From contig NZ_CP049861.1 in assembly GCF_011299615.1 (NCBI RefSeq), positions 1,054,001-1,118,000 on the forward strand: a DNA stretch of 64,000 bases, written 5' to 3'. Origin of the DNA: Erysipelothrix sp. HDW6C (GTDB taxonomy: Bacteria > Bacillota_I > Bacilli_A > Erysipelotrichales > Erysipelotrichaceae). Below are positions 5,187-10,691 of the stretch, piece after piece (position 1 is the stretch's first letter; each line of letters opens with the position of its first letter). The position numbers and the translations under genes were made by a program. Under the pieces are notes generated by a model that had not been told where the DNA came from, ran no database searches, and saw only the letters and a program-made list of their open reading frames with translations.

Positions 5187-5213
5187 CACAAAAAAGAAGG
5201 CAATAAGCCTTCT
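5187..5213 (-). terminator. Terminator of the ogt-msrB operon
   Basis: On the minus strand AGAAGGC and GCCTTCT form a short stem followed by a T-run. The msrB stop codon lies in the first arm. Confidence 0.75.
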
Positions 5214-5622
5214 AAACAAACTTCAAATACTCACCGTAACCCGCTGCTTCCATTTCCTCTTTAGGAATAAAGCGAAGGGCCGCAGAATTGATGCAGTAGC
5301 GTAAACCGCCTTCGTCACGAGGGCCATCATTGAATACATGGCCCAAATGGGAGTTAGCATCCACTGAGCGCACCTCAATGCGGTGCATGTTGTGAGAGAC
5401 GTCTTCAATTTCTGTTACATTATTAATTGGTTTTGTGAAAGATGGCCAGCCGCAACCTGCGTCGTATTTATCTTTCGAAGAGAAGAGTGCCTCACCGCTG
5501 ACAATATCAACATAGATTCCTTTATCATAGAAATCATCGTACTCGCCGGTGAAAGGGCGCTCTGTAGCATTGTTTTGTGTAACCTCATACTGAATGTCTG
5601 TTAATGTGTCTTTTAAATCCAT
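5212..5622 (-). CDS. msrB: Peptide-methionine (R)-S-oxide reductase MsrB
   Basis: Repairs oxidised methionine by reducing the R-sulfoxide, using thioredoxin. The 136 residues cover the whole family domain: D-A-G-C-G-W-P-S-F near residue 54, then [10 protein letters not shown] and the catalytic cysteine in [11 protein letters not shown]. The two CxxC zinc pairs found in many MsrB proteins are absent, so this is the zinc-free form. It lies 12 bases behind ogt with its own GGAGG site, so the two form a protein and DNA repair operon. Confidence 0.95.
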
Positions 5623-5634
5623 AGCGTACCTCCA

Positions 5635-6105
5635 CTAATGTGTTATTGATTCGTGATTGAGTAGTGTTGACTTCATTGCGAGACCGCCTCGGAATCCATG
5701 GAGTTTGCCATCTTTTCCAAGCACACGGTGACAAGGCGTTATAATCATAATTGGGTTTTTACCAATTGCACTTGCTACAGCTCTCACTTTTTTCTTGTCG
5801 CCTAATTTTTCCGCAACATCACTGTATGTAACGGCAGTTCCAAATGGGATGCTATTGAGAATGTTCCACACAGACTCTTGGAAGGCAGTTCCTTTTGGTT
5901 GCAAGTCCAAGGTGAATGCCTTGCGTTTTCCATCAAAATACTCAGTTAATTGTTCGCACTCGATTTGAAACGCGTCGGAAGAAACAAGGGCATTGGGGAA
6001 CATAGTATGCATTTCATCAATGTCATTGCCTAAATAGCACAGCGCGTCGCCATCTTTTACCAAATAGAGTATCAGATCACCATGTTTAAACTCTGTATAT
6101 TTCAT
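5635..6105 (-). CDS. ogt: Methylated-DNA--protein-cysteine methyltransferase
   Basis: A suicide repair protein that moves the methyl group from O6-methylguanine (or O4-methylthymine) to its own cysteine. The 156 residues show the Ada-like N-terminal ribonuclease-fold part and the conserved active-site P-C-H-R-V near residue 125, followed by G-F-R-G-G-L-A-M-K. F-Q-E-S-V-W and the Y-S-D-V-A helix are also visible. It is the first gene of a two-gene operon with msrB. An AGAGGTG site precedes the ATG. Confidence 0.93.
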   Translation of the reverse strand: MKYTEFKHGDLILYLVKDGDALCYLGNDIDEMHTMFPNALVSSDAFQIECEQLTEYFDGKRKAFTLDLQPKGTAFQESVWNILNSIPFGTAVTYSDVAEKLGDKKKVRAVASAIGKNPIMIITPCHRVLGKDGKLHGFRGGLAMKSTLLNHESITH

Positions 6106-6760: not shown

Positions 6761-6784
6761 AAGACCGGATATCCGGTCTTTTTT
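6761..6784 (+). terminator. Terminator of dps
   Basis: AAGACCGGATATCCGGTCTT is a perfect palindrome followed by a T-run. Confidence 0.88.
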
Positions 6785-6947: not shown

Positions 6948-6976
6948 TGCAAATAACAACCTACGGTGGTAATATT
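6948..6976 (+). promoter_or_regulatory. Promoter of the SipW operon
   Basis: TTGCAA, a 17-base spacer and TAATAT with an upstream TGG lie about 35 bases before the first gene. Confidence 0.5.
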
Positions 6977-7011
6977 GGTCAGTACGAAATTTTTGAGGGA
7001 GAATTTAGAAG

Positions 7012-7551
7012 ATGAAGAATTCAAAAAAAGTTAGTTTAGTCGTGCTAGTATTGCTTGCATTTCTACTAACAGGTTTTACTTGGTCGTACTGGAGTGCAGG
7101 AAATGTCGAGACTGCAACTTATAACTTGGATGCTAACACAATTGTGTTGGGTGCATCAAAGGGACAATCTGTTGCAACATCAGTTGTAACTGCAAAGATT
7201 GACTCAACAACACCACTTGTACCTGCAGGTCGTGCAATCTACTCAAAGGATGGAAGTCAGGAATCCGTCACGATGTCACATAAAGTAAAATGGGACACAA
7301 AAAACTTAGCACAAGGAGTTAAAGGTACCTTGACTGTTAAGATAGTAGAAATCAAAATTGATGACAAGTTAGAAAATGCAAATCTTGTTGTGCCAAATGT
7401 TAGAGAACAAGTACTTGCAATCGATGGTGATGGCAGTGTTGACTTTAACTTTGCATTTACACTTACAGAACCAAGTTCAAAAGCAGTGTATGACGCAATT
7501 GCTGGTAAGAAAATCACTTACAAACTTGAACTAACAGTAAAACCAAACTAG
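7012..7551 (+). CDS. TasA/camelysin-like exported protein, likely SipW substrate
   Basis: A 179-residue secreted protein. It starts with two lysine pairs, a hydrophobic segment (about residues 8-23) and the short motif T-W-S-Y-W-S-A-G, a plausible SipW-type cleavage region like the Y-A-Y-F motif of TasA and camelysin. The rest is predicted beta-rich with no cysteines, which fits a surface or fibre protein, but I see no sequence match strong enough to name it TasA. It is the first gene of an operon with the CBM-repeat protein and sipW. The same S-Y-W signature in the next protein supports shared processing. GAGGGAG lies upstream with an AGAAG directly before the ATG. Confidence 0.6.
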   Translation: MKNSKKVSLVVLVLLAFLLTGFTWSYWSAGNVETATYNLDANTIVLGASKGQSVATSVVTAKIDSTTPLVPAGRAIYSKDGSQESVTMSHKVKWDTKNLAQGVKGTLTVKIVEIKIDDKLENANLVVPNVREQVLAIDGDGSVDFNFAFTLTEPSSKAVYDAIAGKKITYKLELTVKPN

Positions 7552-7560
7552 TAACACACA

Positions 7561-8361
7561 ATGCGGAAGATTATTGTACTCTTCGCATTACTTGTGTTAG
7601 GGCTTCTCTTAACTTCGATTACATACAGTTACTGGGAAGAAACCAAAGCAGGTGATGCAAGTAGCATTGTGAGTGAGAACACAATAAAGATTGGATATTA
7701 CGAGGTAAAGGCGTCGCATCCAATCGGTGCTGAAGATTATAATCCAAGTACGCAATACTTGAGAAACGCTATTGTGTTCCACAATGATGAATATTATGTC
7801 CGTTTTTTAGATAACAGTTGGCAAAAGGTTACTCCAGATGATCCCAATGTTGGACCATGGAATAACCCATTCCACATTTACACGAATCGTTACATCTACG
7901 GTATGCGATATTTTGATAATGACCTTGTCATTATGAACGATGTCATTTACTTTGCTGAAAACGGAGGTGCATCCAATATAACACCTGAGCAATCAGACGG
8001 TTACAATGGATGGAAAAAGAAAGGCACCACTGCTGAGCTTTCGTGGAAAAACAACACAGTCTATAAACAAGGCAGTGTTGTCTATTATAACGACAATATT
8101 TATGTTGCTAATAAAGATATGAGTGCTCAAGGATCGGTAGAACCTGGAACTGGCTATGGATGGAATTTGAAGAATCGCCTGCATGCAGATGCCTATTCAA
8201 TTTACACCAAGCATCCAAATATGCCTATCATCGTAGCAGCTAATGACGAACAAGGAATTGATCGTCTGTATTTACTTAAAGGAGAGACGAATGTGGTCAA
8301 TGGTGTAATTTATGCGCCGGGAACAAACAATCAAGTTTGGTCTGCATACCCATTCAAATAA
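7561..8361 (+). CDS. Exported protein with CBM5/12-like repeats, likely SipW substrate
   Basis: A 266-residue protein with an N-terminal hydrophobic segment (residues 3-20) and T-Y-S-Y-W-E-E-T-K-A-G-D, the same S-Y-W signature as the upstream protein. The body contains related units at about residues 65-101, 113-151, 161-201 and a shorter one at 235-260. Each has a pattern like V-x-Y-N-D-x-I-Y-V-A followed by a G-x-G-W or G-P-W end. This resembles chitin-binding CBM5/12 modules, the third unit most clearly. The ligand is unknown; a cell-wall or environmental glycan is an inference. No Shine-Dalgarno sequence is visible in the 9 bases after the upstream stop, so translation is probably coupled to the first gene. 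Confidence 0.6.
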   Translation: MRKIIVLFALLVLGLLLTSITYSYWEETKAGDASSIVSENTIKIGYYEVKASHPIGAEDYNPSTQYLRNAIVFHNDEYYVRFLDNSWQKVTPDDPNVGPWNNPFHIYTNRYIYGMRYFDNDLVIMNDVIYFAENGGASNITPEQSDGYNGWKKKGTTAELSWKNNTVYKQGSVVYYNDNIYVANKDMSAQGSVEPGTGYGWNLKNRLHADAYSIYTKHPNMPIIVAANDEQGIDRLYLLKGETNVVNGVIYAPGTNNQVWSAYPFK

Positions 8362-8367
8362 GGGATT

Positions 8368-8892
8368 ATGCGTAAAGGTAGAGATATTGGGTCGGTAGTG
8401 TTTTTCACAGTTGTGGGAATTATTGCATTATTTATTGGTGCGATGATGTTTTTTCCTCAACAGATGTCGCACTTCTTCCACTTTCGCCATTATGTTGTAA
8501 TCAGTAACAGTATGGAACCGGTGATCAACGTTAACGATGCTGTTATTGTCCAAAAAGTCGAACCGAGCTCACTTAATGTGGGTGATATTATTACCTTTAA
8601 GATGAACATTGATGAAGACGAAGACGAAGAGTATGTAACACATTATATTGCTGAGATAGAAAATGACAAATTTCGTACAAAACCAAATATCAGCAATTCA
8701 TGGGACAGATGGATAGTACCGTCCGAAAAAATAGAAGGAAAAGTCGTTTTGGTCATTCCTAAAATTGGCGCTCTTCTTATTCTAATGTATAACAATGCCG
8801 TACCATTGCTCCTTGTAGCAAATGCGTTGGTAATTATTACGATCATTCGTGTTTATTTTGATAAAGACGAAAAGGAAGCAGATGAATCATAA
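8368..8892 (+). CDS. sipW: ER-type signal peptidase I (SipW family)
   Basis: A membrane-bound signal peptidase of 174 residues. A first membrane segment (about 9-29) is followed by the nucleophile motif I-S-N-S-M-E-P (Ser48). H92 in V-T-H-Y-I stands where bacterial-type enzymes have lysine, which marks the ER/SipW type. A conserved Asp lies in the N-S-W-D-R segment, and a second membrane helix spans about 140-160. The acidic D-E-D-E-D-E-E loop before the His is unusual. It is the last gene of the operon, 6 bases after the CBM-repeat gene. By analogy with Bacillus SipW it should process the two upstream proteins. Confidence 0.88.
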   Translation: MRKGRDIGSVVFFTVVGIIALFIGAMMFFPQQMSHFFHFRHYVVISNSMEPVINVNDAVIVQKVEPSSLNVGDIITFKMNIDEDEDEEYVTHYIAEIENDKFRTKPNISNSWDRWIVPSEKIEGKVVLVIPKIGALLILMYNNAVPLLLVANALVIITIIRVYFDKDEKEADES

Positions 8893-8905
8893 CTGCTTCC
8901 TTTTT
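8871..8905 (+). terminator. Terminator of the sipW operon
   Basis: AAGGAAGCAG pairs with CTGCTTCCTT and is followed by a T-run. The sipW stop codon lies in the loop. Confidence 0.82.
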
Positions 8906-8910
8906 ATATG

Positions 8911-8932
8911 CAAAAACAGCCCGGAGGCTGTT
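8911..8932 (-). terminator. Terminator of the RluD-family gene
   Basis: On the minus strand AACAGCC and GGCTGTT form a stem followed by a T-run. Confidence 0.8.
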
Positions 8933-9806
8933 AAATGTCTTCTTCTTGCTTTTGTGTAACTTTTGTAAGGCGTTTGAATTTTGGAGGAAGCGGTGAAACA
9001 AAGTCCATTACTTTATGTGTTTTTGGATTCTTAATGGTTAAACGGTATGCATGCAAACCCATACGCTTGATGGGGTTGGTTTTGGCATCGTATTTGCGAT
9101 CTCCGATAATGGGATGGCCAATATCATTCATATGAACCCGAATTTGGTTCTTACGTCCGGTATCCAAATTTACTTTGAGTACAGAAAGGTTTTCTGTTTT
9201 CTTAATAACTTTATAGTGGGTAATTGCTTCTTGCCCTGTTGTTGTTGAATACATGTGCGTTGTTTTGTTTTCACGAAGGAATGAACGTATTGTGTCCTCG
9301 TCTTTAACGACCTTTCCTTCAACAATTGCAACATAAGTTCTATCGAGTACCAAATTATTCCAATCGTCTTGGTATGCCTTCTTAACAGCCTCGCTCTTGG
9401 CGAACATGAGAACCCCAGAAGTGTCTTGATCCAAGCGGTGTACAATGAAAATTCGCTTCTTGGAGTCTTGAGTCTTGATATAGTCACTTGCCAAACGGTA
9501 TGCAGTAAGCTCTTCATTTTTATTTGTAGCGACTGTCAGTAGTTTATAGGGCTTATCAATAACTAAAATGTCACGGTCTTCATAGATAATTGTGAGCGGC
9601 GTATCACGTTGTTGATTGTGCGATACAATGGTAATGGTTTGTCCTGCATGCACTTGATCATCAAACTGAGTTGTCACCTCATTATCGATTGAGATACATT
9701 CATGTTTGAGTAATGATTTAATTTTTGAACGACTGTAAGGAAGGTCAGCGTTGAGCACGACGTTCAGAACTTCATCGTCTTTTTGTACGGTTATTGTATG
9801 TTTCAT
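8931..9806 (-). CDS. RluA/RluD-family pseudouridine synthase with S4 domain
   Basis: Converts specific uridines in structured RNA, usually 23S rRNA, to pseudouridine. An N-terminal S4 RNA-binding domain covers about residues 10-65. The RluA catalytic domain follows, with H-R-L-D-Q-D-T-S-G (catalytic Asp) and later T-G-R-K-N-Q-I-R-V-H. The length of about 291 residues is normal. The ATG at 9806 is preferred over 9812 because GAGG is 7 bases from the former but only one base from the latter. The target uridine cannot be told from the sequence. It is monocistronic. Confidence 0.9.
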   Translation of the reverse strand: MKHTITVQKDDEVLNVVLNADLPYSRSKIKSLLKHECISIDNEVTTQFDDQVHAGQTITIVSHNQQRDTPLTIIYEDRDILVIDKPYKLLTVATNKNEELTAYRLASDYIKTQDSKKRIFIVHRLDQDTSGVLMFAKSEAVKKAYQDDWNNLVLDRTYVAIVEGKVVKDEDTIRSFLRENKTTHMYSTTTGQEAITHYKVIKKTENLSVLKVNLDTGRKNQIRVHMNDIGHPIIGDRKYDAKTNPIKRMGLHAYRLTIKNPKTHKVMDFVSPLPPKFKRLTKVTQKQEEDI

Positions 9807-9975: not shown

Positions 9976-10006
9976 TTGACTCTCCCCTTTGGGGAGGGAT
10001 GAAAAT
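9976..10006 (+). promoter_or_regulatory. MerR-type promoter with palindromic operator
   Basis: TTGACT (9976-9981) and a weak GAAAAT (10001-10006) are separated by 19 bases. The palindrome CTCCCCTTTGGGGAG fills the spacer at 9982-9996. A long 19-base spacer with a central palindrome is the classic layout for promoters that MerR-family activators untwist, which points to autoregulation by the next gene. Confidence 0.75.
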
Positions 10007-10025
10007 AAGAGGGAAAGGAGGAAAT

Positions 10026-10691
10026 ATGAATTCATTATATACGGTGAGTCAAGTAGCGAAGGAGACAGGTGTGACAATTAAGACACTTCACCACTACCAA
10101 ACAATTAAATTACTCCTGCCGTCGAAAATCGGTGAAAATGGATACCGTTACTATTCTGAGGCAGACATTAAGCTTCTTCAAGAAATCCTTTTGTATCGAA
10201 CGATGGGGTTTTCACTTCATGACATTAATGGTCTGCTTTCGACCGAAGGATATTCAACACGAATCCAAAGACTTGAACACCAGTTAACAATACTTAATGC
10301 ATCGATTGAAAAGACGCAGGGAATGATTAAAACTATAAATGCTTCGCTTTTAGCAGAAAGGAAGGAACAAAATATGAAACACCAAGAAATGTTTGAACAT
10401 GTCGATAAGCAAGATGACTCTATTTACAGAACGATGCAAAATATAACCATTCTATTAAGCAAACCCTTTACGCTAGTATTCTTTGTTTTAGGGATTGCAA
10501 TGACAATTGCTTATGCAAGAGCGCTCATTATCGACACGCCAATTTTTGGCGCAGGAACAGAAGGCAATATCGTCAGTGTAATTTTTCTAATACTTGGAAT
10601 TAGTTGTAGTATAGTTTCTGGCTATAACCTTTTCTTTGTAAAAACAAAAGACATGCTCAATACGCTCAACCAAAAATATAGAGTAAAATGA
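10026..10691 (+). CDS. MerR-family regulator with C-terminal membrane anchor
   Basis: The N-terminal 75 residues are a MerR winged helix (Y-T-V-S-Q-V-A-K-E-T-G-V, then G-Y-R-Y-Y-S-E-A-D-I). A coiled-coil region covers about 78-115. The usual ligand-binding domain is replaced by two hydrophobic helices at about 146-166 and 182-204, so the protein should be held in the membrane. The start at 10026 has AGGAGG 5 bases upstream, unlike the earlier in-frame ATG at 9999. The MerR-type promoter directly upstream implies autoregulation. What it senses is unknown; a membrane or drug signal is an inference. The next gene, 58 bases on, may be co-transcribed. Confidence 0.82.
   Translation: MNSLYTVSQVAKETGVTIKTLHHYQTIKLLLPSKIGENGYRYYSEADIKLLQEILLYRTMGFSLHDINGLLSTEGYSTRIQRLEHQLTILNASIEKTQGMIKTINASLLAERKEQNMKHQEMFEHVDKQDDSIYRTMQNITILLSKPFTLVFFVLGIAMTIAYARALIIDTPIFGAGTEGNIVSVIFLILGISCSIVSGYNLFFVKTKDMLNTLNQKYRVK

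Follow-up and report, generated by a model that had tools for sequence, protein, structure and literature searches.

Erysipelothrix sp. HDW6C carries a real, conserved operon for two secreted proteins, here called P1 and P2, and an ER-type signal peptidase, and this operon is a variant of the SipW-linked fibre systems. It lies in a 64,000-nucleotide stretch of DNA that was analysed as a whole (the window), from a 2.36 Mb genome in a single contig. We lean, by a small step, towards a reading in which the peptidase releases both proteins, P1 forms a fibre by strand donation, and P2 is an initiator or cap that carries CBM modules.

The operon and its surroundings

The genes of the locus and the terminator that precedes them are as follows (window positions).

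6761..6780, + strand: terminator of the dps-like gene upstream of the operon, an 8-pair stem with a T tail
7012..7551, + strand: P1, 179 aa by ORF call, a secreted, predicted beta-sandwich protein and probable major fibre subunit
7561..8361, + strand: P2, 266 aa by ORF call, a secreted protein of predicted CBM5/12-like units
8368..8892, + strand: ER-type (SipW-like) signal peptidase, 174 aa, Ser48/His92/Asp113, identified by Pfam, NCBIfam and SEC11 alignment

The three-gene SipW operon proposed by an earlier note on this DNA is borne out. All three open reading frames are on the same strand, with gaps of 9 bases between P1 and P2 and 6 bases between P2 and sipW, and the strong terminator sets them apart from the dps-like gene. 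No Rfam elements were found near the operon, and a promoter scan at the operon was uninformative, giving about as many sites as shuffled sequence. The modules of the window, E. anatis and E. aquatica share an insertion site between dps and rluD. E. sp. HDW6A has this site without the module and carries the module elsewhere in its genome. Since rluD is flanked by other genes in most module-free species, we do not draw a clean empty site. A MerR-like regulator with a hydrophobic C-terminal part is encoded 3' of the rluD-like gene (window 9999-10691).

The signal peptidase is of the ER type

The window peptidase scores above the curated cut-offs of Pfam Peptidase_S26 (PF10502) and of NCBIfam TIGR02228 (62.4 bits for the latter, cut-off 51.85). 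The ER-type class (S26B, the SipW/Sec11 kind) is recognized by a Ser-His pair with a downstream Asp, as opposed to Ser-Lys. Ser48, His92 and Asp113 are invariant in an alignment of 12 sequences, and the peptidase profile aligns with human SEC11A/C at an E value of about 1e-16 with the catalytic residues matched. Because these invariant residues align with those of SEC11A/C, we assign the peptidase to the ER type, as had been claimed for the last gene of the operon. It falls below the cut-off of the Bacillus SipW equivalog NF046067 (40.4 bits vs 190).

We built a tree of 90 SipW sequences, 30 of which were labelled as P1-linked. A single supported clade (98/86) with 36 members contains all 30, and its six unlabelled members come from short or cut contigs. 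The KGD motif is present in 0/30 P1-linked SipWs vs 35/60 of the others in the tree. The SipW clade co-evolves with P1.

P1 and P2 share a SipW-type signal and an N-terminal motif

The earlier note had seen an S-Y-W signature in both upstream proteins, and it does adjoin the hydrophobic segment in each, at residues 25-27 of P1 and 23-25 of P2. The predicted signal peptides are listed below (arrow, cut).

7012..7086, + strand: P1 signal peptide, residues 1-25, predicted cut TWS↓YW, parallel to the TasA site TWA↓AFND, with W27 conserved
7561..7629, + strand: P2 signal peptide, residues 1-23, predicted cut TYS↓YW, motif as in P1

Around the predicted cut, P1 reads TWS↓YWSA and P2 reads TYS↓YWEE, and W27 of P1 is invariant in 21 relatives. 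In TasA, the site from P3 to P4' is TWA↓AFND, with an aromatic residue at P2', and the tryptophan at site position P2 together with the phenylalanine at P2' means that E. coli LepB cleaves this site poorly (PMC10269814). The SYW motif fits a SipW cleavage site, and we infer the exact cut from the parallel with TasA.

A search for the motif beside sipW genes, which the earlier note had suggested, found it enriched there. On retrieved loci around 73 SipW genes, picked irrespective of P1 and P2, [SA][YF]W follows an N-terminal hydrophobic stretch in 43/208 near ORFs vs 1/158 far ORFs (odds ratio 41, Fisher p=1e-10). Outside Erysipelothrix the counts are 32/188 near vs 1/135 far (p=2.5e-7). Across the genome, nothing matches the SipW-cognate signal family TIGR04088, a short model from which the variant motif departs. 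It is very probable that P1 and P2 are secreted through the action of SipW.

Downstream of the tryptophan, both window proteins contain W-x14-NTIxxG.

7135..7152, + strand: P1 motif NTIVLG, residues 42-47, candidate part of a donated strand (W-x14-NTIVLG; predicted strand 43-46 after a disordered stretch)
7678..7695, + strand: P2 motif NTIKIG, residues 40-45, at the same spacing from W as in P1

Nearly all relatives of P1 and P2, and most of the small CBM partners, have a motif of this type 11-16 residues past the W. By script, the spacing is found in 20/21 P1 and 9/10 P2 relatives, and in both misses an earlier F was located. The motif was picked after inspection of the sequences. Mature TasA (8aur) starts AFNDIKSKDATFASGTLDLS, and its F-x12-GTLDLS is comparable to W-x14-NTIxxG.

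The donor strand by which TasA polymerises is formed by its N-terminal residues 28-38; TapA, which has TasA's N-terminus, is the proposed giver of the first strand (PMC9674648, PMC10151520). By analogy, P1 would be the main fibre subunit, its freed N-terminus supplying the next subunit with a strand in the manner of TasA, and we consider it fairly likely that P1 does form a fibre. P2 would carry the same N-terminal element as a strand donor but would offer no acceptor, because its body appears to consist of complete CBM5/12-fold units with no open beta-sandwich. As a donor only, it would sit at one end of the fibre, in TapA's role of initiator or cap, displaying glycan- or surface-binding modules; we give this placement an even chance.

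A different account is that SipW frees two independent surface proteins, with P1 monomeric or coat-forming, P2 an adhesin, the shared N-terminus a recognition signal, and no fibre. The P1 and P2 families can be aligned over their first 48 residues only (hhalign E 3.5e-9), and when the signals are removed, the best alignment of the mature profiles falls in the NTIxxG register and is not significant (E 0.27). Profile similarity that is significant only with the signal included is what this account expects, and the weak fold match of P1 to TasA (below) suits it too. It is harder to reconcile with an NTIxxG motif held 15-20 residues past the cut, at fixed spacing in nearly all relatives, and with the characterised SipW operons in the literature covered (TasA/TapA, TasA/CalY, BsaA), which all make filaments. 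We regard it as unlikely.

The core of P1 and its relation to TasA

An AlphaFold2 model of P1, made with 21 relatives, has a mean pLDDT of 76 and an all-beta core, laid out as a signal helix, a disordered stretch (27-40), a strand (43-46) and then a beta-sandwich. A Foldseek search with this model returns generic beta-sandwiches, among which TasA (5of2) has rank 34 and a probability of 0.41. Many other matches, to chaperone-usher proteins and viral coats, are middling, and we trust none of them.

P1 has no family match in Pfam or NCBIfam. Profile comparison of P1 with mature TasA by hhalign gives E=0.06 and a probability of 0.9%. Primary-sequence kinship of P1 and TasA was rejected, as the PDB profile search, Pfam and hhalign were all negative. 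We also sought camelysins for profile comparison; neither 295 genomes of the phylum nor plasmids yielded any.

P1 might still be a diverged but ordinary member of the TasA/camelysin family (PF12389), given the same signal type, the gene context and the beta-sandwich prediction. P1 itself has no match to PF12389, however, and the best of its 21 relatives reaches E=0.32; the sole PF12389 match in the genome (E=0.02) belongs to a different locus. TasA is matched better by the classical-type proteins of related species (E 0.001) than by P1 (E 0.06). We hold this origin to be improbable. The earlier description of P1 as TasA-like stands for the signal, cleavage site, N-terminal strand and gene context, and is not borne out for the core, which is unmatched in sequence and has a weak fold match. 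"TasA-like" therefore refers to the N-terminus and gene context, and TasA kinship of P1 is unproven.

P2 is a predicted row of CBM5/12-fold units

The predicted structure of P2 (pLDDT 78) divides as follows.

7726..7878, + strand: unit 1, about residues 56-106; with unit 2 it aligns to the tandem CBMs of a Vibrio chitin deacetylase (Z 5.5, 92 residues, rmsd 3.0)
7879..8034, + strand: unit 2, about residues 107-158; matches the chitinase C CBM 1wvv (Z 3.0, 47 residues, rmsd 1.7)
8038..8184, + strand: unit 3, about residues 160-208; Pfam CBM_5_12 E=7.6e-4 over residues 162-183, chitinase B CBM over 44-46 residues, rmsd 1.6-3.0
8185..8358, + strand: degenerate fourth unit, about residues 209-266; predicted strands 224-228, 234-239 and 260-262, spanned by few fold matches

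Three successive stretches of the model match CBM5/12 domains of chitinases and chitin deacetylases, including a chitinase C CBM over 44-45 columns at rmsd 1.3-1.4. Against CBM_5_12 (PF02839), P2 scores 19.9 bits, under the gathering cut-off of 26.2. These comparisons model P2 as a row of CBM5/12-fold units and agree with the claim of three to four such units, three matched by fold and the fourth degenerate. P2 has no NCBIfam match at E<=10, and so none to the TapA/YqxM profile. With its body built of CBM units, P2 is, as the earlier note had held, unlike TapA.

Whether the units bind glycan is less certain, because the paired aromatics of CBM5/12 appear to be absent. Compared with the solved chitin-binding domain 2rts, the small CBM relatives have "kd" at the position of its "YW", and the P2 units read YFAEN and YVANK at the chitin-binding aromatic site, so the pair seems to be missing in P2. 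The units could instead be structural or protein-binding, with P2 anchoring the fibre to the cell or capping it without binding glycan. These residues would be expected in that case, and phage tail fibres and baseplates of the same fold are among the top matches in the P2 fold search. Most solved relatives, on the other hand, are chitinases and chitin deacetylases, and a long homolog in another genus (L095) retains the aromatic pair in one unit (AKYYTQG). We treat this structural or protein-binding role as a possibility somewhat short of even. The earlier claim of glycan binding thus keeps its fold and appears to lose its paired binding aromatics; "glycan-binding" is meant by fold only, and the chances that P2 binds glycan look balanced.

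In the named species, identity to the window protein is 41-54% for SipW, 29-42% for P1 and 21-35% for in-operon P2. In-operon P2 thus diverges faster than its neighbours, which one expects of an adhesin and which is no proof of one.

Distribution of the module

Five more named Erysipelothrix assemblies contain P1-P2-sipW, namely E. anatis, E. aquatica, E. inopinata, E. urinaevulpis and sp. HDW6A. No significant match to P1, P2 or SipW was found in 6/13 genomes of the genus. E. anatis and E. aquatica have a second P1-P2 pair 3' of sipW, plus an orphan P2 elsewhere (L071 3769-4569 and L072 3635-4435) with no adjoining P1 or SipW. These orphans are 42-43% identical to the window P2, vs 21-25% for the in-operon copies of the same two species. 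In one Erysipelothrix MAG (L070 45-251), a P2 remnant with a stop codon precedes an intact SipW, either through decay or as an artefact of the contig edge.

Beyond the genus, the module was found in two more genera of the Erysipelotrichaceae (L094, L095), as well as in genomes or MAGs that carry the labels Acholeplasma, Izemoplasma, Mollicutes and Bacillota. The CBM partner outside Erysipelothrix is 95-103 aa with one CBM5/12 unit, and 7/7 aligned partners match PF02839; in L095 it is a 546 aa repeat protein that passes the CBM_5_12 cut-off (E=4e-28, 97.6 bits). P1 homologs stand beside SipW at 20 loci, 14 of which have a profile-detected CBM partner. Among the other six, L165 has a probable partner by eye. 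The order P1-CBM-SipW is conserved beyond chance, since it is met again in further Erysipelothrix species and in further classes and the motif is enriched near sipW. No P1 was found on plasmids, and no P2 in phages.

In Mollicutes, a gene of about 195 aa with SAFAYW (gene A) upstream of P1 is a P1 homolog over 165 columns (E 3e-16). This family (SAFAYW...LVPxGY...; L106-L120, L095), encoded directly 5' of P1, may provide the fibre with a minor or second subunit. Mollicutes often carry the SipW gene in two copies (L106, L108-L112, L117, L118, L120), and between these is encoded a SipW-like membrane protein of ~190-230 aa in which the catalytic serine seems to be missing. Locus L113 has two P1 copies with identical scores (5198-5887 and 8809-9498), ~3.6 kb apart with a SipW near each, the result of either a recent duplication or an error in the assembly.

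Another SipW locus elsewhere in the genome

A second SipW, 28% identical to that of the window, is encoded at 740-750 kb (L077, C1:740000-752000). Tandem repetitive proteins of 495-707 aa that start GTLAWQDVSQHKTNKF lie on one side of it. On the other side is a protein of 885 aa that has the related start HGWFDDSQHKTNRF and contains Cna_B, SpaA and FctA domains. Both partners have one post-cleavage N-terminal tag in common, different from the window tag. A shared, locus-specific tag fits the pairing of a subunit and an adhesin at each locus.

Comparison with known systems

Like tapA-sipW-tasA of B. subtilis, the window operon sets an ER-type peptidase beside its substrates, has a TW[AS]↓x[FW] site, and has two substrates with a common N-terminus. 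Unlike that system, the P1 core is not recognisably TasA, P2 has predicted CBM5/12 units where TapA has an Ig domain, the SipW clade is without the KGD motif, and the gene order is P1-P2-sipW. The B. cereus sipW-tasA-calY system with CapP likewise makes SipW-linked, sortase-independent extracellular filaments (PMC13082335), but it uses two camelysins and the helical/repeat protein CapP, and a CBM protein is undescribed there. By description, sipW-bsaABCRSD of C. perfringens is a SipW operon too, coding for BsaA, which forms filaments, and for other secreted proteins (PMC7395162); it has its own two-component system, and the part of that source consulted does not mention a CBM protein. The CBM5/12 modules of chitinases and chitin oligosaccharide deacetylases have the fold predicted for the P2 units, whereas P2 is not attached to an enzyme, seems to lack the paired aromatics, and has a SipW-type signal in front. 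The earlier suggestion of an undescribed system holds, as the open-access literature searched has no description of a SipW-CBM pair.

The fibre reading draws its strength from the invariant catalytic residues of SipW, the cleavage-site parallel, the motif enrichment, the N-terminal similarity of P1 and P2, the CBM fold of P2, the donor-strand precedent of TasA and TapA, the conserved gene order, the SipW clade and the parallel at L077. It is weakened by the generic fold of P1 and its core without TasA homology, by the post hoc choice of the NTIxxG motif, by the loss of significance of the P1-P2 profile match once the signals are removed, by the 6/20 P1 loci without a profile-detected CBM partner, and by the apparent absence of the P2 aromatics. 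More tentatively, we propose that SipW-dependent fibres built by strand donation form a class of their own, widespread and present in Erysipelotrichales and wall-less Mollicutes, with subunits unrelated to TasA in sequence and a CBM5/12 initiator or cap bearing the subunit's N-terminal strand.

Most of what is known of SipW/TasA fibres comes from Bacillus and Clostridium. Relatives of the gene set in wall-less bacteria suggest an unstudied kind of bacterial surface fibre. If the proposed class exists, it would be the Gram-positive equivalent of lectin-tipped pili. The gene set would offer a simple test of a lectin end on strand-donated fibres outside chaperone-usher pili. A conserved SipW clade, an unnamed beta-sandwich family and a CBM partner would together give their carriers, the wall-less ones included, a defined surface-attachment apparatus.
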